From positions 113,188 through 177,187 of the IMG/VR virus record IMGVR_UViG_3300043446_003158: a DNA stretch of 64,000 bases. One strand, given 5' to 3'. Below, one piece after another: positions 20,506 through 61,675 of this stretch; positions within the stretch are counted from its first letter, which is position 1, and every line of letters begins with the position of its first letter. This stretch comes from a virus. The notes under the pieces were generated by a model. That model made no database searches. It was given only the letters and a program-made list of their open reading frames with translations, and was not told the DNA's origin. The position numbers and the translations under genes were made by a program.

Positions 20506-22683
20506 TTAAACATTACCTACGATTTCTTCAAAAGAAACACCACTTCTCGTAGCTACAAAAGTCAGACCAATATAATTGATAGAACGTGATGGTTTTACAT
20601 AGATATCGGCAATAAACTCATTATTGTCAATTACTGCGGCAGTATTATTACTTGCATCACAAATAACTCTGTAATCTAATAATCCTCTTTTTGCTTGAAT
20701 ATCTCTTAAGAAAGGATCAACTGAATTTACAAAATTACTTCTTGTTGTTTCATCATTAAATTCAAACAATTGATCATCAGCAGCTGCTTTTATTGCATTT
20801 TCAATGTAAATCATTAATCTGCGAACGTTAATTCTATCAAATGCTGATGATTTTGCTAAACCTGTTTTATCACCAAATAAAATTATTCCAGATCCTGAAG
20901 AGAAAATAACTGGATTTACTCTATTAGAGTAAAGTCTATCTCTTTGTACTTTTGATGGATTATATGCAAGTTTAACTGCATTTAAAACTGAACCTCTTGA
21001 TGTTCCAGCAGGTGAAACCCAAGGAGCATTTGCTATCTCAGCTCTTGCACAAATTCCAGCAATATCTCCATTTAATGGTACATATCTAAATGTTTGTGCA
21101 AATTTATCGTACATGTACTTATAACCACTATCAAAAATTGCATAAGATGAAGATGGTATTGATGCATAGAAACTAATAACATTATCTGTTATTGTTGATG
21201 CATTTATAGGAACAAATTGGGATGTACCACTTAAATTCAACATTGAATTTCTATATGGAGAAATACATGCGATGGCATCTTGTCTTTGTTCTGCAACTGA
21301 AATAATTTTAGATGCTAATGCCTGGGCAGTCTCTTTATCATAAGCTGCCGATCCCATTAGTATAAAATCAGTATCATATTGTTCGGTATTTGTTAATAAA
21401 TCATATCCACTTGATAAATCTGCCAATGATGACACTAAGGATGCATTATTGTCTAAACTTGTTTGACCATCATAATTTTTTCCTCCAGATAATGAATAGG
21501 TTTCTGCACCTAAACATTTAAATACTGTATTATTTTCAGTAACAGTATTCCAGTTCTTAGTTGTACCTAATGAAAAAGATGAAGAAGTTGTAAATCCACA
21601 AGTTACAACACCAGTTGGCTGAGAACCTGCAAAAATTAATGAAGATCCTTCAGAAACATACTTATTCCAATAAGAAGAACTTCCTGCAGCATAAACTGCA
21701 TTTTTGGCTTTAGATAAGGATAAATGTTTCTCTAAAACAGTACCAGAATTTCCAGTAATTCCTCCATCTCCATCAATAACAACGACGTGAAGTTCATCAA
21801 ATCTACTTCCTCTAGAAGATGCAAATCTTGAAGTTCCTGGTCTTGGTCCAAGAGTATTCCATGCAATTGAACCATTGTCTAAAGTTATGGATTGTGAATC
21901 ATACCAGTCTGGTGCCGATGAAAAAGTAACAGTTGATAATGCTACTGCGCTACCATTTTGGTGAATTCTAACAGTTCCTACACCTACAGAAAATCTGTAA
22001 ACACCTTGTGGTTCGTAGTCAATTTGAGATTCTGTTCCAGATGCTGAAACATAACTCAATATTTTCACATCTAAAGTGCTAGCACCAATTCCAGTAATAA
22101 TTCCTTTGATATAACCATCTAAAACTGTAGTTGTTCCAATACCAGCATTAACAGTTCCACTAATAGATTGAGTTATTCCATAACCAACAACTACACTGCT
22201 TGTTGTTATTCCACTTAAAATTTGATCAGCTTTACCATCAATGATTGCAACTTTTAATCCATTACCCCAAGATCCTGGATTTCTTGCTACAGCAACGTGA
22301 CCAGAAATTGCAGTTTCATCGTATCCTTTATTTACATAATCATCATAACTTTTGATCTTTATACTTGTTCCTGCACCAGCAGATGTTCCAACTGCTGCAT
22401 TATATAAACTTGTTCCATCAGATCTTAAAACTAGTAAATTTCCACCATATGCCAAGAACGATGAAGCGGTAAACCAAGTTTCATAATGAGTTGCTGAATT
22501 GCGTGGTTGTCCAAAATTTGCCAATAATTCTTGTTCGTTTTGAATCAAAACTGAACTCTCAACTGGACCTTTTTCAAAAGGCGCAACAATTGCGGCTACA
22601 GTGCTTGATGATGGGTCAACTCTTCCAACTGTTACATCAACTTCTCTTACAATAACTCCAGGAGATGCTAAATTTAAAGGCAT
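20506..22683 (-). CDS. 18: Tail sheath protein gp18
   Basis: This 725-residue protein (T4 gp18 is 659) begins MPLNLASPGVIVREVDVTVG and ends IADIYVKPSRSINYIGLTFV followed by ATRSGVSFEEIVGNV, the conserved start and end of contractile sheath proteins. The middle domains (about 90-380) are variable, Ser/Gly-rich and probably surface exposed. A strong AAAGGAGA ribosome-binding site precedes the ATG, and a TTAATAAATAATT late-like promoter lies further upstream. Confidence 0.96.
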   Translation of the reverse strand: MPLNLASPGVIVREVDVTVGRVDPSSSTVAAIVAPFEKGPVESSVLIQNEQELLANFGQPRNSATHYETWFTASSFLAYGGNLLVLRSDGTSLYNAAVGTSAGAGTSIKIKSYDDYVNKGYDETAISGHVAVARNPGSWGNGLKVAIIDGKADQILSGITTSSVVVGYGITQSISGTVNAGIGTTTVLDGYIKGIITGIGASTLDVKILSYVSASGTESQIDYEPQGVYRFSVGVGTVRIHQNGSAVALSTVTFSSAPDWYDSQSITLDNGSIAWNTLGPRPGTSRFASSRGSRFDELHVVVIDGDGGITGNSGTVLEKHLSLSKAKNAVYAAGSSSYWNKYVSEGSSLIFAGSQPTGVVTCGFTTSSSFSLGTTKNWNTVTENNTVFKCLGAETYSLSGGKNYDGQTSLDNNASLVSSLADLSSGYDLLTNTEQYDTDFILMGSAAYDKETAQALASKIISVAEQRQDAIACISPYRNSMLNLSGTSQFVPINASTITDNVISFYASIPSSSYAIFDSGYKYMYDKFAQTFRYVPLNGDIAGICARAEIANAPWVSPAGTSRGSVLNAVKLAYNPSKVQRDRLYSNRVNPVIFSSGSGIILFGDKTGLAKSSAFDRINVRRLMIYIENAIKAAADDQLFEFNDETTRSNFVNSVDPFLRDIQAKRGLLDYRVICDASNNTAAVIDNNEFIADIYVKPSRSINYIGLTFVATRSGVSFEEIVGNV

Positions 22684-22764
22684 CTTCTTGTCTCCTTTTC
22701 CAGAAATATTCTAAAATTATTTATTAAAAAGACTATTTCTGATGGGGAAATAACCCACGAACAA

Positions 22765-23007
22765 TTACCAGTCTGGATATTCTATAAAATCTGATATAAT
22801 TTCTTTTTTGGGGCATATTAATCTAGATTTTTTTATTCTTTGTATCGTACATTCTTTACATTCATAAGAATATGATGATGGTAAAGATCCTCTGTCTCTG
22901 TATGATAAATAAAAATCGTCCAATAAATTTTTTATTTGACCACAAGATCTACATTTTCGTTCCAAAAATAAAAGATGTTCTAAATCTACTTGATCATCTA
23001 AATCCAT
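22765..23007 (-). CDS. Zinc-ribbon small protein between gp17 and gp18
   Basis: This 80-residue protein has two CxxC pairs: C19/C22 in RKCRSCGQIK and C50/C53 in YECKECT. The spacing and the intervening LLDDFYLSYRDRGS resemble the zinc-ribbon half found beside HNH or endonuclease VII-type nucleases. No HNH residues are visible, so it is not called a nuclease. Its start abuts the terminase stop directly. It may be a remnant or a stand-alone DNA-binding module. Confidence 0.7.
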   Translation of the reverse strand: MDLDDQVDLEHLLFLERKCRSCGQIKNLLDDFYLSYRDRGSLPSSYSYECKECTIQRIKKSRLICPKKEIISDFIEYPDW

Positions 23008-24681
23008 TTAAATATAATCCCACATATAACTTCTATCACCATATTCGTCAAAATGCCAAGTATCACCATCACTATCTGTAAATGATGGTCCAGATTCTAA
23101 TCCCGTAGATATAAAACCAAAAGGAGACATATCTGCTTCTATTTGTTCTTCTTGTTCTTCATATATTCTTTTACGAATATCATCATTTGTCATTTCTTTG
23201 AAATATGGTTGTGCAACTAACCAAGCAAAGATAACTAAACACATCATTAAATCATCATTACAACCTTCTTCTGCCATAAAAGTATTACTTTTTTGAATAA
23301 AGGTTGTCATCTCACTAATAATATCATAATCATTAGTTAATAACTTATCATCTTCTATAAGAGTTCTTAAATTAGAACAACCTAGCTTTTTAACTGCAGC
23401 AGTCATTCTAATTCCAAGATAGGATTTTTTACCACTAAATCCTGTTCCTACTATTTGTCCTGCTCTACCTCTTTGAGAGCACATTAAAATGTTATCATAC
23501 TCCAAATCATAGTGTAATATATTTGCTATTTGATCTCCAATATCATTAATCTCAACTAAAATCCAAGCATGATTGTATGCCTTTGCCAAAGGTTCTATGA
23601 CGCTTGGGAAAAGCATGGGCTTTATTTCATTATTTCTATATTTTGCAACTACTTTATATGGAAAAGAAGTTATGTCTACAACAACAAATGCAGAGTAATC
23701 ATTTCCTATTCCTCTTGCAACATCAACTGTAATCATATAATTGTGTCCATCTATTGGATCTTCGTAAACATCCAATCCTTTATGTTTTTTTATTGGATCT
23801 TCATATACTAAATTTCTTAATTTAGAAGGATTGATTAAAGTATCAACGGATCCTAAAAATTCACATTCAAACTCAACTTTAAATTGCTGTTCAGAAGTGT
23901 TTGCAATTGTAGATGCTTTCCATTTTTCGTCTCTTCCAGGAACTTCGGACCAGTGAACATCAGTTGGTACATATTCATTTTTACCTCTTTCAGAATCATG
24001 CCACTTTCTGTAAAAATGATTCATTCCACGTGGGGTGGAAACGATGATTACTTTTGTTGATGTTCCAGATGAAATAGTCGGATAAGTTGATGCGAAAAAA
24101 TCATCTGCAATATGGTTTGGGATAAACGCAAATTCGTCCAAAAATATAATGTTATATGATCCACCACGAACTGCAGATGCAGATGTTGATGCTGCGATGA
24201 TTTTAGATCCATTCTCTAACTCCAGAGAACCTCTATTCCACTGCAAAACCCCTTGTTGCATCCATTTGGGTAAATTCTCATAAGCGAGTTGTAGGCGCTG
24301 TAAAAGATCTCTGGCAGTTGATGCTTTGTTTGCCAAGATTGCAATATTTACATTATCATTAAAAACAGCATAATGTAAAAGATATGAAACGCACGTTGTA
24401 GATTTTCCCGTTTGACGGGGCATCTTACAAATATTAAATCTGTGCTTATGGAAATTATTAATTAATTTTTCTTGAAATGGGTATAGATCAAATGGGACTA
24501 AACCATGATCAAGAGAAACAATCTTAATGTAATTTTTTGCAAAATAAACAGGGTCTTCTTTACACTTAAAAAATTCTATAATTTGCTCTTGTGTCCATGA
24601 AAATGATGTATTTGCCCTTTTTAAATTTGGATTTGATAAGTAAGCATCAGATTGCTTAAGTTGAATATCTTGAATTGTCAT
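23008..24681 (-). CDS. 17: Terminase large subunit gp17
   Basis: This 557-residue packaging motor has a Walker A at 88-95 (PRQTGKST), a Walker B at 178-184 (IIFLDEF), and a C-terminal RNaseH-like nuclease with ITVDVARGIGNDYSAF (about 318) and GCNDDLMMCLVIFAW. It translocates DNA into the prohead through gp20 and cuts concatemers. It overlaps the upstream 243-residue gene by four bases. Confidence 0.97.
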   Translation of the reverse strand: MTIQDIQLKQSDAYLSNPNLKRANTSFSWTQEQIIEFFKCKEDPVYFAKNYIKIVSLDHGLVPFDLYPFQEKLINNFHKHRFNICKMPRQTGKSTTCVSYLLHYAVFNDNVNIAILANKASTARDLLQRLQLAYENLPKWMQQGVLQWNRGSLELENGSKIIAASTSASAVRGGSYNIIFLDEFAFIPNHIADDFFASTYPTISSGTSTKVIIVSTPRGMNHFYRKWHDSERGKNEYVPTDVHWSEVPGRDEKWKASTIANTSEQQFKVEFECEFLGSVDTLINPSKLRNLVYEDPIKKHKGLDVYEDPIDGHNYMITVDVARGIGNDYSAFVVVDITSFPYKVVAKYRNNEIKPMLFPSVIEPLAKAYNHAWILVEINDIGDQIANILHYDLEYDNILMCSQRGRAGQIVGTGFSGKKSYLGIRMTAAVKKLGCSNLRTLIEDDKLLTNDYDIISEMTTFIQKSNTFMAEEGCNDDLMMCLVIFAWLVAQPYFKEMTNDDIRKRIYEEQEEQIEADMSPFGFISTGLESGPSFTDSDGDTWHFDEYGDRSYMWDYI

Positions 24682-57203: not shown

Positions 57204-57450
57204 TCCATTCTTGTTTTGTATTTTGTTTTATATAGTATATTTTGAAATTATAATCGACCTGTGGGGCGAATTTTTATGGGGGAAATTTTTTTAGGTTCAG
57301 AGAATTATAAGTCTCATTTGGGTAACACTTTATAGATTGAGGGATCCATCGTTTTTATAAACCACGCGCCCCGCCATCACGATACCGTTATACCATAATA
57401 CTGTGATTTTGCACGAACGAACAGGGGGGCGTGTGCCGCCCCCCGAACTG
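57204..57450. other. Intergenic boundary between AT-rich genome and GC-rich array
   Basis: No gene is visible in these 247 bases. The stretch from 57204 to about 57355 is AT-rich, like the structural region. From about 57360 the sequence becomes GC-rich (ACCACGCGCCCCGCC). A perfect GGGGGGC/GCCCCCC hairpin (57424-57444, seven-base loop) follows the first array gene on the minus strand and may end its transcript, though there is no T-tract. Confidence 0.5.
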
Positions 57451-57642
57451 TCACTGCACGTCGCCCAGGGCGCTGTTCGTGGTGCTCATGCGGGTGCCGC
57501 GTGAACCAGCAGCGCCGCCATGGGTGCGAACGCGGGTGCTGCCGCCCTTGATCTGATTTGCCCAGCGGTTGGCACGGGTGCCATGGGCAACGGGCAGGCG
57601 GGTGATCGTGAACTGGATGCCGTCGATGGTGGTGGTGGTCAT
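57451..57642 (-). CDS. 63-residue basic array protein
   Basis: MTTTTIDGIQFTITRLPVAH begins a basic protein with RANRWANQIKGGSTRVRTHG and GGAAGSRGTRMSTTNSALGD. It looks like a short beta hairpin followed by a disordered basic tail. It is the last cassette of the GC-rich array and has its own promoter at 57668-57696. No Shine-Dalgarno sequence is present before the ATG. No family recognised. Confidence 0.65.
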   Translation of the reverse strand: MTTTTIDGIQFTITRLPVAHGTRANRWANQIKGGSTRVRTHGGAAGSRGTRMSTTNSALGDVQ

Positions 57643-57707
57643 CGGGTGTGGTGCGGTTTGCTCTGGAATTCTACAGGGTCAGGGGGCAGGGGTCAACCCA
57701 CCCCCTG
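57643..57707 (-). promoter_or_regulatory. Array promoter unit 1 (TTGACC-17-TAGAAT with hairpin)
   Basis: -35 TTGACC (57691-57696), 17-base spacer, -10 TAGAAT (57668-57673). The -35 lies inside an inverted repeat CAGGGGG/CCCCCTG (57680-57686 and 57701-57707). The leader CCAGAGCAAACCGCA then leads directly to the ATG at 57642. The same layout precedes several neighbouring genes. Confidence 0.8.
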
Positions 57708-57712
57708 TAGGA

Positions 57713-57973
57713 TCAGATGCCTGCCATCGCGGCAACCAGGCGATCACGCTTGCGGATCGCGGTGGGCACGATGAACCAGAGGTCACGCTTGCCGCTGTCG
57801 GAGCGGGTGGCATCCAGGGTGCCGCCCTTCTCCATGTCAACCATGAGGGCGTGGATGGTGCCCTTATGGCGGCGGGGGTCCATGCCCATGGCGCGAACCA
57901 GGTCGCTGCAGGTCATCGGGCCGTCGTTGATCAGGCGGGTGCGGATCGCGGTGCGGATGATGGAGGTCAGCAT
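57713..57973 (-). CDS. 86-residue array protein, possible winged-helix
   Basis: MLTSIIRTAIRTRLINDGPM begins a helical protein with TCSDLVRAMGMDPRRHKGTI, HALMVDMEKGGTLDATRSDS and GKRDLWFIVPTAIRKRDRLV. The helix-turn-helix-like 'MTCSDLVRAMGMDPRRHKGTIHALM' followed by a hairpin 'GTLDATRSDSGKRDLWFIV' looks like a winged-helix DNA-binding domain. If so it could regulate transcription, including the palindromic promoters of the array. The start at 57973 follows the conserved leader; a longer reading would translate the leader itself. Confidence 0.7.
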   Translation of the reverse strand: MLTSIIRTAIRTRLINDGPMTCSDLVRAMGMDPRRHKGTIHALMVDMEKGGTLDATRSDSGKRDLWFIVPTAIRKRDRLVAAMAGI

Positions 57974-58036
57974 CGGGTGCGTTGCGGTTTGCTCTGGAAT
58001 TCTACAGGGTGGGCGGGGCACCCGTCAAGGTGCCCC
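57974..58036 (-). promoter_or_regulatory. Array promoter unit 2 (TTGACG-18-TAGAAT with hairpin)
   Basis: -35 TTGACG (58023-58028) is exactly the six-base loop of an eight-pair hairpin GGGGCACC/GGTGCCCC (58015-58022 and 58029-58036). After an 18-base spacer comes TAGAAT (57999-58004) and the leader CCAGAGCAAACCGCA. Confidence 0.82.
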
Positions 58037-58043
58037 ATAGGGG

Positions 58044-58268
58044 TCAGTACCCCAACCAGGAGAGGAACTCACCGCAGTCGATGCGCTCACCCTGCAGGTG
58101 CCCGTACTCCTTGCGGAAGTCGTAGAGGCAGGAGTGCATCTCTGCAGACTCCAGGGCGATGTGCCAGGCGATGGTGTCGTCGGCGGGGTGAGAGCAATCC
58201 CACAGAATGTCGGAGAAGGTGGTGCCAGGGGCGTACACGTTGAGGCAGTCGCGGAGGGCGGTGGTCAT
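58044..58268 (-). CDS. 74-residue acidic array protein
   Basis: MTTALRDCLNVYAPGTTFSD begins a protein with ILWDCSHPADDTIAWHIALE and SAEMHSCLYDFRKEYGHLQG, ending CGEFLSWLGY. It has four cysteines, but they show no zinc-ribbon spacing. It has its own promoter cassette. No family recognised. Confidence 0.65.
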   Translation of the reverse strand: MTTALRDCLNVYAPGTTFSDILWDCSHPADDTIAWHIALESAEMHSCLYDFRKEYGHLQGERIDCGEFLSWLGY

Positions 58269-58327
58269 CGGGTGCGATGCGTTTGCTCTGGAATTCTACA
58301 GGATGGGGGGTCGTTTGCCAACCCCCC
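58269..58327 (-). promoter_or_regulatory. Array promoter unit 3 (TTGGCA-17-TAGAAT with hairpin)
   Basis: TTGGCA (58316-58321), 17-base spacer, TAGAAT (58293-58298). A GGGGGGT/ACCCCCC hairpin (58305-58311 and 58321-58327) holds most of the -35 in its loop. The leader is a variant in which one C is lost (CAAACGCA). Confidence 0.75.
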
Positions 58328-58334
58328 TGGGGGG

Positions 58335-58553
58335 TCAGATCTGCTCTGCCATCTGCTGCTCCATCTGCTCACGGATCATGGCACGGATGGCGAAGGCGCT
58401 CTCACGGATGCTGCGGCAGGAGTCGGCACTCAGGTCATTCTCACCAGCGCGGGCGGCCTCCTCATTCTCAAACCAGCGGATGCCTGCGTCGATCAGGGCA
58501 TGGCAGATCTCATCAGCGATGGCAGGGGTCACGGTCAGGGTGAGGGTGGTCAT
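58335..58553 (-). CDS. 72-residue helical array protein
   Basis: MTTLTLTVTPAIADEICHAL begins a protein with IDAGIRWFENEEAARAGEND and SIRESAFAIRAMIREQMEQQ. It has a short strand, then two helices, and ends in a Gln/Met-rich helix. It has its own cassette promoter. No family recognised. Confidence 0.65.
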   Translation of the reverse strand: MTTLTLTVTPAIADEICHALIDAGIRWFENEEAARAGENDLSADSCRSIRESAFAIRAMIREQMEQQMAEQI

Positions 58554-58613
58554 CGGGTGTGGTGCGGTTTGCTTGAGAATTCTACAGGATGAAGGGGAGG
58601 GGGTCAACCCCTC
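58554..58613 (-). promoter_or_regulatory. Array promoter unit 4 (TTGACC-17-TAGAAT with hairpin)
   Basis: TTGACC (58602-58607), 17-base spacer, TAGAAT (58579-58584), then a leader in which CTCAAGCAAACCGCA replaces CCAGAGCAAACCGCA. The hairpin GAGGGG/CCCCTC (58597-58602 and 58608-58613) puts the -35 in the loop and also covers the last codon of the upstream gene. Confidence 0.78.
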
Positions 58614-58809
58614 ACACCCGCGTCACGGTCAGGCGCTTCCATCCTTCGATGCGGTAGTAGCGGATCTCCTCCAGGATGGAGTTGACCACGTTGTTGTGCT
58701 GGCGGTCAAACCCCTTGGGCGTGGTGGGACGGCGGCGGCGGCGGTACTCTACGGCAGTAGTGCCATCGGCACGGTCCAGTTCGATGCGGTAGAGGCAGGT
58801 GCTGGTCAT
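58612..58809 (-). CDS. 65-residue basic array protein
   Basis: MTSTCLYRIELDRADGTTAV begins a protein with EYRRRRRPTTPKGFDRQHNN and SILEEIRYYRIEGWKRLTVT. The strand-helix-strand layout, with a run of five arginines in the loop, suggests a small alpha/beta nucleic-acid-binding fold. It has its own cassette promoter. No family recognised. Confidence 0.65.
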   Translation of the reverse strand: MTSTCLYRIELDRADGTTAVEYRRRRRPTTPKGFDRQHNNVVNSILEEIRYYRIEGWKRLTVTRV

Positions 58810-58870
58810 CGGGTCCGTTGCGGTTTGCTCTGGAATTCTACAGGGTCGGCGGTGGGAGGTCAACCCTCCC
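58810..58870 (-). promoter_or_regulatory. Array promoter unit 5 (TTGACC-17-TAGAAT with hairpin)
   Basis: TTGACC (58858-58863), 17-base spacer, TAGAAT (58835-58840), conserved leader CCAGAGCAAACCGCA. Hairpin GGGAGG/CCTCCC (58854-58859 and 58865-58870). The TGA stop of the upstream 59-residue gene (58860-58862) is embedded in the -35 hexamer. Confidence 0.8.
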
Positions 58871-59039
58871 AGGTCACCACGTCGGCGGCGTAGTGTTCGG
58901 CATACCGTGCTGCCCACCAGTACCCCTCAGCAGGGTTGATCTGTCCAGCGAAGCGATCCTGGGGGGCATCGTCAGTCTTACGGGTCACCCACATGGTTTC
59001 GCGGGTCTGCAGGTCGGAGCACTGGGAGAAGATTGCCAT
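58860..59039 (-). CDS. 59-residue array protein
   Basis: MAIFSQCSDLQTRETMWVTR begins a protein with KTDDAPQDRFAGQINPAEGY and WWAARYAEHYAADVVTWEG. It is compact, with several tryptophans and tyrosines. Its stop codon is shared with the -35 box of the next promoter. It is read from the second promoter type (TGCTACACTACCC). Confidence 0.65.
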   Translation of the reverse strand: MAIFSQCSDLQTRETMWVTRKTDDAPQDRFAGQINPAEGYWWAARYAEHYAADVVTWEG

Positions 59040-59074
59040 GGGTGCGGTTGCGGTTGCTTGGGTAGTGTAGCAGG
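59040..59074 (-). promoter_or_regulatory. Array promoter unit 6 (extended -10 TGCTACACT)
   Basis: TGCTACACT with -10 TACACT at 59064-59069, followed by ACCCAAGCAACCGCAACC. The same core precedes the 61-residue gene's downstream neighbour at 59269. No good -35 is visible, so it would rely on the extended -10. Confidence 0.55.
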
Positions 59075-59245
59075 TCAGCGGCGCTCACCGCACCAGGCGG
59101 GGTCGGCGGTGCAGAGGGCGTCTGCCATGCGCTCCTGGTGAGCGTCAACGGTTGCCGCGGCCTTCAGGGTCCAGGCACCTGCCACGATGCTCACAGAGCA
59201 GAAGAGCATGGCAGCGATGGCATTGTGGAGAGTGCGGTCGGTCAT
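59075..59245 (-). CDS. 56-residue membrane microprotein
   Basis: MTDRTLHNAIAAMLFCSVSI continues VAGAWTLKAAATVDAHQERM and ends ADALCTADPAWCGERR. Residues about 9-28 form one hydrophobic membrane segment or signal anchor, followed by a soluble tail with two cysteines. It is likely a single-pass inner-membrane or exported small protein. No family recognised. Confidence 0.65.
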   Translation of the reverse strand: MTDRTLHNAIAAMLFCSVSIVAGAWTLKAAATVDAHQERMADALCTADPAWCGERR

Positions 59246-59279
59246 GGTGGGGTTGCGGTTGCTTGGGTAGTGTAGCAGG
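59246..59279 (-). promoter_or_regulatory. Array promoter unit 7 (extended -10 TGCTACACT)
   Basis: TGACCTGCTACACTACCC with TACACT at 59269-59274 and the leader AAGCAACCGCAACC, a near copy of unit 6. Confidence 0.55.
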
Positions 59280-59465
59280 TCAGAAGCGAACTGCCCAGTT
59301 CGGGTCGGTCAGGCAGTTGATCCAGGCGCACCAGTTGCCGTTGGTGCTCACGCAGAACAGGTCATTGCCCTGGCGCTGCTCAACCACCACCACGGGGTCG
59401 CCTGCCATCTGGTTTGCCAGGCGGTTCTTTGCCTTGGCGGAGATGGGGGTCAGGGTCACGGTCAT
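59280..59465 (-). CDS. 61-residue array protein
   Basis: MTVTLTPISAKAKNRLANQM begins a protein with AGDPVVVVEQRQGNDLFCVS and TNGNWCAWINCLTDPNWAVR. It has a short helix, then a beta-rich half with three cysteines. Its opening 'ISAKAKNRLANQM-GDPVVVVEQ' suggests a small alpha/beta fold. No family recognised. Confidence 0.65.
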   Translation of the reverse strand: MTVTLTPISAKAKNRLANQMAGDPVVVVEQRQGNDLFCVSTNGNWCAWINCLTDPNWAVRF

Positions 59466-59524
59466 CGGTCGGTTGCGGTTGAGAGAATTCTAGTCTATGG
59501 ATGGGGAGGGGGTCAACCCTCCCC
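59466..59524 (-). promoter_or_regulatory. Array promoter unit 8 (TTGACC-18-TAGAAT with hairpin)
   Basis: TTGACC (59511-59516) is exactly the loop of an eight-pair hairpin GGGGAGGG/CCCTCCCC (59503-59510 and 59517-59524). After an 18-base spacer comes TAGAAT (59487-59492), then the leader TCTCTCAACCGCAACC. Confidence 0.82.
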
Positions 59525-59531
59525 GTAGGGG

Positions 59532-59696
59532 TCACCAGAGCAGGTCAGCGATTGCTTCCAGGCGCTGCTGGCGGGATGCCAGTTCCTTGAGGATTGCCCG
59601 CTGCTCCTTGGCGGTGGGGTTTCCTTCCCACAACCACTCCTCCAGTTGAAAGGAGGTCAGGTCGTCAAAGGCGGTGGCGATGGTTCCGTCCAGCAT
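59532..59696 (-). CDS. 54-residue acidic helical array protein
   Basis: MLDGTIATAFDDLTSFQLEE begins a protein with WLWEGNPTAKEQRAILKELA and SRQQRLEAIADLLW. It has two helices with an amphipathic coil and could be a small binding protein. Start chosen after the leader. No family recognised. Confidence 0.65.
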   Translation of the reverse strand: MLDGTIATAFDDLTSFQLEEWLWEGNPTAKEQRAILKELASRQQRLEAIADLLW

Positions 59697-59758
59697 GGGG
59701 TCGGTTGCGGTTTGCTCTGGAATTCTACAGGGTGAAGGGGAGGGCGTCAACCCTCCCC
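59697..59758 (-). promoter_or_regulatory. Array promoter unit 9 (TTGACG-17-TAGAAT with hairpin)
   Basis: TTGACG (59745-59750) is exactly the loop of an eight-pair hairpin GGGGAGGG/CCCTCCCC (59737-59744 and 59751-59758). A 17-base spacer, TAGAAT (59722-59727) and the full leader CCAGAGCAAACCGCA follow. Confidence 0.82.
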
Positions 59759-59765
59759 ATAGGGG

Positions 59766-59990
59766 TCAAACGGCAACCCAGTAGGATTTGCCGTTGCTCT
59801 CCTGCTGCTCTGCCATGATGTAGTCGGCGCTGCCATAGGCGCTGCGCCATCCCTGGACCTGGTAGTAGCAGTCCTCCAGGGTGGTGGCGTAGGCAAGGGT
59901 GCGGGCGATCTTACCGCCCTTCACGAACGCCACCGCGAACGGGTAGCGGGTGGGGGAGAGGATCGTCTGCAGGGGGGTGGGGTCGGTCAT
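59766..59990 (-). CDS. 74-residue array protein
   Basis: MTDPTPLQTILSPTRYPFAV begins a protein with AFVKGGKIARTLAYATTLED and CYYQVQGWRSAYGSADYIMA. The layout is strand-strand-helix. It is transcribed from the second promoter family at 60015. No family recognised. Confidence 0.65.
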   Translation of the reverse strand: MTDPTPLQTILSPTRYPFAVAFVKGGKIARTLAYATTLEDCYYQVQGWRSAYGSADYIMAEQQESNGKSYWVAV

Positions 59991-60059
59991 CGGTTCGGGT
60001 GGTGAACTTCGATCAGTATAGCAGGTCAGGAGGCAAAGGGGAGGGGGTGTGCCCCTCCG
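59991..60059 (-). promoter_or_regulatory. Array promoter unit 10 (extended -10 TGCTATACT)
   Basis: TGCTATACTGATCGAAGTTC with TATACT at 60015-60020. A GGAGGGG/CCCCTCC-type hairpin lies just upstream near 60039-60058. There is no -35 match at 17 bases, but the extended TGC-TATACT is strong. Confidence 0.65.
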
Positions 60060-60090
60060 CTGTGCCACCTAGCGGGTGGGCGCAGCGTGA

Positions 60091-60240
60091 TCAGAAGTCG
60101 ATGGCATCAAGTGTAGGGTCTGCGCCATACTCATCACATTCGTCAACACTATCCCCCAGAACAAGAGTGTCAAGAATTTGCAGGATTTGTTCGCCGTTGT
60201 TACCAGAGCGGAGGAGAGAAAGCGCAAGGTCGCGGGTCAT
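60091..60240 (-). CDS. 49-residue acidic array protein
   Basis: MTRDLALSLLRSGNNGEQIL begins a protein with QILDTLVLGDSVDECDEYGA and ends DPTLDAIDF. The 'ALSLLRxGNNGEQILxILDTL' helix pattern is a frequent small cyanophage protein as I recall. It is less GC-rich than the cassettes below it. Its upstream region has no clear promoter. Function unknown. Confidence 0.7.
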   Translation of the reverse strand: MTRDLALSLLRSGNNGEQILQILDTLVLGDSVDECDEYGADPTLDAIDF

Positions 60241-60298
60241 CGTAGAGTTTGCAATTGGGTGTAATTGGGTGTCTTTATGGGCGCACCCGTTCCCTGTA

Positions 60299-60460
60299 TC
60301 ATCGCTCTAGTTGTGCCAGCGATGAGGGGGCGATGTGAGAAGGCGAACCGCAGGAGCGGTAGAACTCTACCATGCGATCTGCCTCCTCCTTGGTTGTGAA
60401 CCACTGGGAGCGCCACTCACACTGGTTGTAGGGGGTCTGATAGCGAACTTCGAAGCGCAT
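60299..60460 (-). CDS. 53-residue array protein
   Basis: MRFEVRYQTPYNQCEWRSQW begins a protein with FTTKEEADRMVEFYRSCGSP and ends SHIAPSSLAQLER. The strand-strand-helix layout with 'WFTTKEEADRMVEFYRSCGSP' is a common small cyanophage protein. The 34-base sequence around its promoter and leader is identical to that of the 88-residue gene upstream. Confidence 0.7.
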   Translation of the reverse strand: MRFEVRYQTPYNQCEWRSQWFTTKEEADRMVEFYRSCGSPSHIAPSSLAQLER

Positions 60461-60518
60461 GGGGTTGGTTGCGAACTTGATCAGTGTAGCATGGCGGAGG
60501 GGGTGCTGGGCACCCCCG
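60461..60518 (-). promoter_or_regulatory. Array promoter unit 12 (extended -10 TGCTACACT)
   Basis: TGCTACACTGATCAAGTTC with TACACT at 60483-60488, then GCAACCAACCCC to the ATG. A perfect GGGGGTGC/GCACCCCC hairpin lies just upstream at about 60498-60516. Identical core to unit 13. Confidence 0.65.
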
Positions 60519-60524
60519 TGAGAT

Positions 60525-60791
60525 TCAGAAGTCGAACACGTCGCCGTTGATCTCTGCTCGGTTGATCTCTGGATCGTTCCACATCACACCGTCAGGGGTT
60601 TGAGTGCTGCCGTGATCATAGAACGCTTCCAGCAGTTCTTCATAGCAGCAAACGTCATTCTGCTGAATGAAGTCTTGGATGCTTTCGTCATTCTCAATCC
60701 ACAGAACAACGTTCCAGGTTTTGTAGTTTGTCCACCCGTTGTAGGTAACATCCAGCAGGTTGGTCTGGTGAGTGCGGGTTGCGGTTGCCAT
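60525..60791 (-). CDS. 88-residue conserved 'TNYxTWNV' phage protein
   Basis: MATATRTHQTNLLDVTYNGW begins a protein with TNYKTWNVVLWIENDESIQD, then ELLEAFYDHGSTQTPDGVMW and an acidic end. The phrase 'GWTNYKTWNVVLWIENDE' marks a small protein family spread among many phages and some bacteria, with unknown function. It is the best-conserved member of the array. Confidence 0.75.
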   Translation of the reverse strand: MATATRTHQTNLLDVTYNGWTNYKTWNVVLWIENDESIQDFIQQNDVCCYEELLEAFYDHGSTQTPDGVMWNDPEINRAEINGDVFDF

Positions 60792-60852
60792 GGGGTTGGT
60801 TGCGAACTTGATCAGTGTAGCACGGGAAGGGGGGCAGGAGCGCCCCCCAGGG
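60792..60852 (-). promoter_or_regulatory. Array promoter unit 13 (extended -10 TGCTACACT)
   Basis: TGCTACACTGATCAAGTTC with TACACT at 60814-60819. Upstream is a GGGGGGC/GCCCCCC hairpin (60829-60848). The leader is identical to unit 12. Confidence 0.65.
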
Positions 60853-60855
60853 CGC

Positions 60856-61032
60856 TCAGATGGCGCTGGTGCCCTTGCTCACCCACAGTGCCAGGCGCAT
60901 GGTGCCTGCCTTGCTCACCTGCTGGGCGGTGCGCCCCTGGGCGATGGCAGCAGTCTTCAGGGAGTTGCGGTGAGCATCGGCACCGCACACCATCACGTCA
61001 CGTGCTTGCTGGAGGAGTTGCTGCTGGGTCAT
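60856..61032 (-). CDS. 58-residue basic helical array protein
   Basis: MTQQQLLQQARDVMVCGADA begins a protein with HRNSLKTAAIAQGRTAQQVS and KAGTMRLALWVSKGTSAI. It is helical, Gln/Ala-rich at the start and basic at the end. No family recognised. Its promoter carries a distinct palindrome TGAACACGTTCA. Confidence 0.65.
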   Translation of the reverse strand: MTQQQLLQQARDVMVCGADAHRNSLKTAAIAQGRTAQQVSKAGTMRLALWVSKGTSAI

Positions 61033-61100
61033 GGTTGGTTCAGGTGTTGAACGTGTTCAGTATAGCATGGGGGTGGGGCACCCACACGGTGCCCCTGGGA
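61033..61100 (-). promoter_or_regulatory. Array promoter unit 14 (TGCTATACT, palindrome TGAACACGTTCA)
   Basis: TGCTATACT with TATACT at 61059-61064, directly followed by TGAACACGTTCA, a near-perfect palindrome covering the transcription start. A GGGGCACC/GGTGCCCC hairpin (about 61076-61096) lies upstream. Confidence 0.65.
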
Positions 61101-61102
61101 GA

Positions 61103-61276
61103 TCAGGCAGTGATCTCCATCCACTCCTGCTCGTCGCGGTAGATCACCACGGGAGCACCACCGAGTTCGATGCTCCAGTCGAAGGCAACGTCCACGGCGT
61201 GCTCTTCGCTGGTGAAGAACTCTGCGTGATCCATGCCAGTGCCCTTGGGGGCGGCGCTCCAGGAAACGAAGGTCAT
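61103..61276 (-). CDS. 57-residue acidic array protein
   Basis: MTFVSWSAAPKGTGMDHAEF begins a protein with FTSEEHAVDVAFDWSIELGG and APVVIYRDEQEWMEITA. The layout is alpha/beta, with a likely strand 'PVVIYRDEQEWMEI' at the end. No family recognised. Read from its own TGCTACACT promoter. Confidence 0.65.
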   Translation of the reverse strand: MTFVSWSAAPKGTGMDHAEFFTSEEHAVDVAFDWSIELGGAPVVIYRDEQEWMEITA

Positions 61277-61337
61277 CGGGTTCGGGCGTTGAACTTGATC
61301 AGTGTAGCACGGAAAGGGGGGCGTTGGTGCCCCCCGT
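61277..61337 (-). promoter_or_regulatory. Array promoter unit 15 (extended -10 TGCTACACT)
   Basis: TGCTACACTGATCAAGTTC with TACACT at 61301-61306, followed by the leader AACGCCCGAACCCG. A GGGGGGC/GCCCCCC hairpin lies upstream (61316-61336). Confidence 0.65.
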
Positions 61338-61342
61338 AGGGT

Positions 61343-61567
61343 TCACACGGTGGCAGGCACCTGGGTGAGTTGATCGCCACGAATAGCGAGGTTGATGAAC
61401 TTACCCACGGAGTCTTCGTTTTCGATCACCAGGTTGAGATCGGCAACGAAACCAGCAGGATCAGTCACGTTGTAGGTGTAGTCACGCCCACCGTTGAAAG
61501 TAACAGTCACTTGACCGTTCTGCACCTCGGAGATGTTTTCGATGGCGCTGGATTGAAACTTGAACAT
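61343..61567 (-). CDS. KTSC-like domain protein
   Basis: This protein is 74 residues from the ATG at 61567. It reads MFKFQSSAIENISEVQNGQV followed by TVTFNGGRDYTYNVTDP and a helical end. The 'SSAIENISxxxxGQVTVTFNGGRDYTY' pattern resembles the KTSC domain, a small beta domain found in phages and bacteria, often near DNA or lysyl-tRNA synthetase functions. It has a longer leader (about 65 bases) than its neighbours. Confidence 0.7.
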   Translation of the reverse strand: MFKFQSSAIENISEVQNGQVTVTFNGGRDYTYNVTDPAGFVADLNLVIENEDSVGKFINLAIRGDQLTQVPATV

Positions 61568-61637: not shown

Positions 61638-61675
61638 AGTATGGCACGGATTGGGGGTGGGGTCAACCCCCTTGT
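61638..61675 (-). promoter_or_regulatory. Array promoter unit 16 (TTGACC-17-CATACT)
   Basis: TTGACC, a 17-base spacer and CATACT (61638-61643) within TGCCATACTGATC precede the KTSC-like gene. The -35 lies at the base of a GGGGGT/ACCCCC hairpin (about 61656-61674). Confidence 0.68.

Follow-up and report, generated by a model that had tools for sequence, protein, structure and literature searches.

Why should the -35 box of a promoter sit in the loop of a hairpin, and why should this arrangement recur ahead of one small gene after another? The question is raised by an array of one-gene cassettes in a T4-like cyanophage. It lies in the window, as we call the whole 64-kilobase (kb) stretch that closes IMG/VR virus record IMGVR_UViG_3300043446_003158, which is 177,187 bases long. 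Composite promoter/stem-loop elements with gene exchange are already known as the PeSLs (promoter-early stem-loops) of T4-like phages, and the element described here is a variant. On present sequence comparisons, with a probability of roughly 0.75, the array is a dense series of PeSL-type composites within a hypervariable part of the phage genome. Read on the coding strand, an element of about 75 bases would lead from the stop codon of one gene through an RNA hairpin and a sigma70-type promoter to a short leader and the next gene's start codon. The -35 box would be placed in the hairpin loop or, in units with an extended -10 promoter, be replaced by the hairpin.

The array (57451..61567) is GC-rich and includes about 16 genes of about 49-88 amino acids between the gp25/gp6 side and the tRNA-Leu side of the window; it lies on the minus strand, as do all of the units and hairpins located below. 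A first-pass annotation of this DNA had described seven units (1-5, 8, and 9) with a TTGAC-type or TTGGCA -35 box, a spacer of 17 or 18 bases, and TAGAAT as the -10 box, and all seven were relocated at 57.67-59.75 kb (TTGACC/TTGACG/TTGGCA-17/18-TAGAAT at 57696, 58028, 58321, 58607, 58863, 59516, and 59750). Promoter-like sites number 13 at 57.0-62.5 kb, compared with a shuffled mean of 2.5 (standard deviation 1.3). As the same annotation had stated, the eight-pair stems of units 2, 8, and 9 enclose a six-base loop that coincides exactly with the -35 hexamer (an 8-6-8 hairpin). Unit 2 (57999..58036) has the hairpin GGGGCACC-TTGACG-GGTGCCCC at 58015-58036, with the loop at 58023-58028 and the -10 box at 57999-58004, and precedes the gene at 57713-57973. 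The hairpin of unit 8 (59487..59524), GGGGAGGG-TTGACC-CCCTCCCC, spans 59503-59524 (loop 59511-59516, -10 box 59487-59492) ahead of the gene at 59280-59465. Unit 9 (59722..59758) repeats these arms around a different loop, GGGGAGGG-TTGACG-CCCTCCCC, at 59737-59758 (loop 59745-59750, -10 box 59722-59727), and precedes the gene at 59532-59696.

The -35 boxes of the other four units overlap the loop, also as described, and their stems are shorter or shifted. Unit 1 (57668..57707) pairs GGGGGTGGG with CCTGCCCCC, including two wobble pairs, in a hairpin at 57680-57707; its TTGACC lies at 57691-57696 and its TAGAAT at 57668-57673, ahead of the gene at 57451-57642. Unit 3 (58293..58327; hairpin 58305-58327, TTGGCA 58316-58321, -10 box 58293-58298) precedes the gene at 58044-58268, and unit 4 (58579..58613; hairpin 58597-58613, TTGACC 58602-58607, -10 box 58579-58584) precedes that at 58335-58553. 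Ahead of the gene at 58612-58809 lies unit 5 (58835..58871; hairpin 58853-58871, TTGACC 58858-58863, -10 box 58835-58840), whose -35 box contains the TGA stop (58860-58862) of the upstream gene at 58860-59039. The 4-kb island holds 9 GC-rich hairpins with stems of 7 or more pairs, whereas 20 dinucleotide shuffles gave 0-2 apiece. When six stretches were folded as RNA, z-scores were -2.2 to -3.3 and the stems were stable.

Relatives were sought in IMG/VR with a leader pattern blind to both the hairpin and the -35 box, which gave 43 stretches, and with a promoter pattern, which gave 55, many of them common to the first set; the contigs compared are metagenomic and some are short. A TTG-type -35 box at 17 or 18 bases is present in 45 of the 50 distinct upstream sequences of leader-defined units, and 34 of the 50 reach a stem score of at least 6, a score reached by 4.4% of shuffles. 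Over all loci, the spacing from TTGAC to TAGAATTC is 16, 17, or 18 bases in 4, 77, and 49 cases, respectively, and another length in 4. The sigma70-like promoter that characterizes PeSLs is thus present by consensus only, with a spacing fixed over dozens of loci, and the stem-loop overlaps or adjoins it as in PeSLs. The hairpin centre falls 18-21 bases before the -10 box (variants TACAAT, TAGAAT, TATACT, and TACACT) in 77 of 93 distinct promoter hairpins, although TTGAC or TTGGC stands at the hairpin in 31 of the 93. Because the centre keeps its position while only some hairpins carry the box, the hairpin occupies the -35 position with or without it. The kept register may reflect compactness, a common origin of the elements, or selection for junctions that work.

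The stem itself is conserved as a paired structure. Inner arm pairs covary among units (CACC/GGTG, CAGG/CCTG, AGGG/CCCT, CGG/CCG, and TGG/CCA). In 11 distinct hairpins all cells are paired, and wherever a pair varies (four of four) both of its bases change; covariation is 0.359, compared with 0.130 when shuffled (0/500), and sliding the partners gives no more than 0.106. These hairpins were selected for the 8-6-8 layout, a choice that favours the percentage paired, so the covariation is the stronger point. The comparison with relatives proposed in the first-pass annotation therefore finds the hairpin conserved together with the -35 box and the stem covarying, within the limit set by 28 units that have a stop codon in the -35 box and often a shorter stem.

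What kind of molecule the stem serves can be judged from its imperfect pairs. The 93 distinct hairpins followed by a -10 box contain 44 internal G-U pairs and 3 A-C pairs (p=2e-10); counted by distinct stem the figures are 25 and 3, and by locus 20 and 1, with 19 ties. Composition does not explain the excess, since with the base counts of these stretches (A 362, C 1175, G 910, T 469) A-C and G-U would arise by chance about equally often. Hairpins that lack a promoter or G clamp lean more weakly in the same direction (56 G-U, 28 A-C; Fisher p=0.0005). Tolerance of G-U and not of A-C indicates that what is conserved in the stem is a structure of the coding strand rather than a DNA operator. The bias suits an RNA hairpin in the upstream gene's transcript, and a folded non-template DNA strand may be an alternative source of it. 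Two candidates were rejected on the same evidence: a duplex DNA operator or cruciform would give no bias between G-U and A-C, and a template-strand promoter hairpin of the N4 type would favour the opposite wobble. The first-pass annotation had offered, as its second reading, an operator through which all cassettes would be shut off jointly; the palindrome at the -35 box would then be the binding site of a repressor. Palindromes at the -35 box are the classic repressor layout, and the hairpin position is the same in most units; yet the strand bias is foreign to a duplex palindrome, arm sequences vary from unit to unit, and each part also occurs alone (the last hairpin lacks a promoter, and two promoters lack a hairpin). 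A joint operator is accordingly improbable, and that part of the annotation was not borne out.

Evidence that the element is also a site of exchange comes from the order of genes around it. The data comprise 100 distinct contexts at 57 loci, in which 25 families of small genes are located behind the promoter. Two or more upstream neighbours could be assigned for 16 families, and in 13 of these the neighbours differ; on the downstream side, 9 of 12 families have at least two different neighbours. The family order 3-12-11-8-5-4 at locus L020, whose units are identical to those of the window, may be compared with 3-0-11-8-12-13-5 at L007; the families meet at the element in changing orders. Pairwise comparisons, which share ancestry and are not phylogenetically independent, place the ends of homology: where the downstream gene is the same (at least 85%) and the upstream gene differs, homology ends 4-45 bases before the -10 box in 48 of 49 pairs, and in the reverse comparison it ends at -15 to +61 relative to the -35 box in 101 of 103, with the start codon at about +54. 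Mosaicism inside the gene is confined to 1 of 170 same-family pairs, and the hairpin of L060 is chimeric (GGGGCAGG with ATCCGCCCC). Gene exchange with boundaries in the element, a further feature of PeSLs, is therefore found here as well, and the position of nearly all exchange boundaries inside the element argues strongly for the claim that it is a site of cassette exchange.

Near-identical elements around every gene mean that homologous recombination can exchange single genes. The boundaries are scattered over the stem, the -10 box, and the leader, and homologous recombination fits this scatter better than a site-specific enzyme. An integron-like system, with the hairpin as a folded single-strand site cut by an integrase, would explain single-gene cassettes in one orientation with hairpins at their boundaries, and the coding-strand bias would also suit a folded single DNA strand. 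It is nevertheless highly improbable: the spread of homology ends contrasts with the single point expected of an attC site, every cassette has its own predicted promoter rather than being promoterless, and no recombinase was identified beside the array in a search that was not exhaustive.

Might the hairpins simply be ordinary terminators that abut the next promoter through compactness, with the shuffling unrelated and the boundaries mere intergenic gaps? The hairpin does lie close behind the stop codon in most units, and the hairpin at the array end exists without a promoter. This explanation is unlikely, however, because U-tracts are nearly absent, the hairpin centre stands at a fixed distance from the -10 box, and the promoter and leader sequence common to junctions with swapped neighbours offers real homology for exchange. 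A canonical rho-independent terminator was likewise rejected for want of the U-tract. The array hairpins may instead pause transcription, terminate it weakly, or protect 3' ends. Cyanobacteria are not known to have Rho. The annotation's proposal that one element closes a gene and opens the next is supported by the comparison of relatives in its general form; the terminator role is the part that stays conjectural.

A PeSL-type array would operate as follows. The transcript arriving from the upstream gene would fold into the hairpin and most likely be ended there or have its 3' end stabilized. Read-through across the next promoter would thus be limited, and each cassette would be expressed independently. 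The near-identical elements on both sides of each gene would allow homologous recombination, by enzymes that presumably serve this purpose, to swap, insert, delete, or reorder single genes, and each new junction would regain a working stop codon, hairpin, promoter, and leader.

Several observations weigh against this account. At least 5 T in the next 8 bases are found at 5 of the 93 promoter hairpins, and promoter-bearing hairpins in the window are followed by 0-4 T, whereas a U-tract is often present at GC hairpins elsewhere in the genome and at the array-end hairpin; efficient intrinsic termination is therefore doubtful. Units 6 and 7, which precede the genes at 58860-59039 and 59075-59245, have a -10 box and no hairpin. 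In 28 distinct units the upstream gene ends with a TGA that is part of TTGAC, and in 42 the stop is upstream of the hairpin. Where the stop is in the -35 box, the upstream gene belongs to family 1, 3, or 20 (family 1 is found in both arrangements), the left stem arm is the coding end of that gene, and the stem is often shorter or weaker. The hairpin can thus weaken while the -35 box stays, and it is not indispensable. To these points is added the shared ancestry of the pairs on which the boundary counts are based.

GC content is 52-63% at 57.4-61.4 kb, compared with 25-45% over most of the genome. The array genes are mostly without a family; for a few there are matches to PHROGs or to a Pfam family whose function is unknown. 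The window also carries gp6 and gp25, baseplate genes of the T4-like type, and arrays in relatives lie at the same site adjoining gp6; a setting among small novel genes in hypervariable T4-like DNA, again as for PeSLs, is thus indicated by the gp6/gp25 flank in the window and by gp6 in relatives. The tRNA-Leu of the window resembles that of Synechococcus phages, and tRNA was the sole match in an Rfam search. At 60.0-61.7 kb, hairpins recur ahead of extended -10 promoters (TGCTAYACT) with loops mostly free of TTGAC. Those with TGCTATACT lie at 60040..60058 (without TTGAC; gene 59766-59990) and 61075..61095 (gene 60856-61032), and those with TGCTACACT at 60499..60517 (gene 60299-60460) and 61316..61335 (gene 61103-61276). 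A mixed unit at 61638..61671, ahead of the gene at 61343-61567, has TTGACC within a GC hairpin and, after 17 bases, a TG-preceded CATACT. In units 6 and 7 (59034-59089 and 59240-59294), TGCTACACT-type promoters directly follow the stop codon, and the two are 93% identical over a common stretch of 43 bases. The terminal hairpin behind the last cassette gene (57424..57444) is followed by the more T-rich TGTTCGTTCG and by no promoter. Behind it lies a conserved motif, TTCGTTCGTG...CAGTATTATGGTATAACGGTATCGTGATGGCGG (57370-57424, minus strand), which is found at more than 20 loci and occurs twice in L009, L018, L042, L046, and L047; a related core is present in S-PM2 and S-CREM1.

PeSLs were described by Arbiol et al. 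in 2010 (doi 10.1093/gbe/evq006) and Comeau et al. in 2014 (doi 10.1093/gbe/evu129), both cited in PMC4503421. The stems of RB49 PeSLs are said in the 2010 study to terminate well, and mini-circles reportedly arose from exchange between neighbouring elements. The RB49 DNA (NC_005066) was read for comparison and contains repeated promoter/stem-loop composites without a U-tract in two registers (e.g., 158910-158979 and 131659-131725), with the stem either between the -35 and -10 boxes (TTGACAGGGGATCGGCGATCCCCTATACT) or around the latter (GGGGGTAGTAATATACCCCC). Common to both systems are a sigma70-like promoter with a stem-loop, many copies among small novel genes of a hypervariable region, and exchange at the element. 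In contrast to the RB49 registers, the loop of the cyanophage hairpin is the -35 box, and the cyanophage array is dense, GC-rich, and sometimes has the stop codon inside that box. The cyanophage element appears to have every PeSL feature that can be examined by sequence, and it need not be homologous to the PeSLs, which are composite elements of RB49/phi1 and other T4-like phages (references in PMC4503421). A haloarchaeal myovirus, HGTV-1, has a TATA-like motif and an inverted repeat before most open reading frames of one genome half, which its authors likened to PeSLs (PMC3950731); it differs in its archaeal promoter and is an unrelated virus.

A sparser copy of the array is present in a cultured phage, S-PM2 (AJ630128), in an island of 54-59% GC (21.5-25.0 kb) between tRNAs and gp25/gp6. 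This mini-array (21542-24583) has at least 7 related promoter units, including one full TTGACG-in-loop hairpin at 22037-22060, and its cassette families 7 and 3 follow the order seen at L055, L064, L066, and L070. Some of its genes are annotated on the opposite strand. The locus is the same and the units are similar, though sparser than in the window and its relatives. An S-PM2 unit used as query recovered its own genome and, in S-SRM01, a promoter/leader identical over 24 bases, and the 75-base consensus had no match among annotated phages. Puxty et al. (2015; PMC4503421) found intense shuffling in S-PM2, left its mechanism open, and judged PeSLs an unlikely cause because they were few. Dense arrays in the window and its relatives weaken that doubt for this class of phages, although the deleted ORFanage of S-PM2 lies about 6 kb from the island and has few such units.

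In T4-like cyanophages the majority of genes are small and novel and turn over rapidly, and the arrays provide the dense elements that were missing in the 2015 study of S-PM2 (PMC4503421). Placing the -35 box in the loop compresses a stop codon, a terminator-like hairpin, and a promoter into one overlapping element. The occurrence of a sparser copy in a cultured phage makes the claims about transcription and recombination testable at the bench. A more tentative proposal, to which we give rather less than even odds, is that cyanophages share a pool of one-gene cassettes behind a junction that rebuilds itself, and that the register of hairpin and -35 box was selected for exchangeability. If so, the system would resemble in its working an integron that lacks an integrase, and ORFan turnover in S-PM2 and other such cyanophages would have one of its main sources here.

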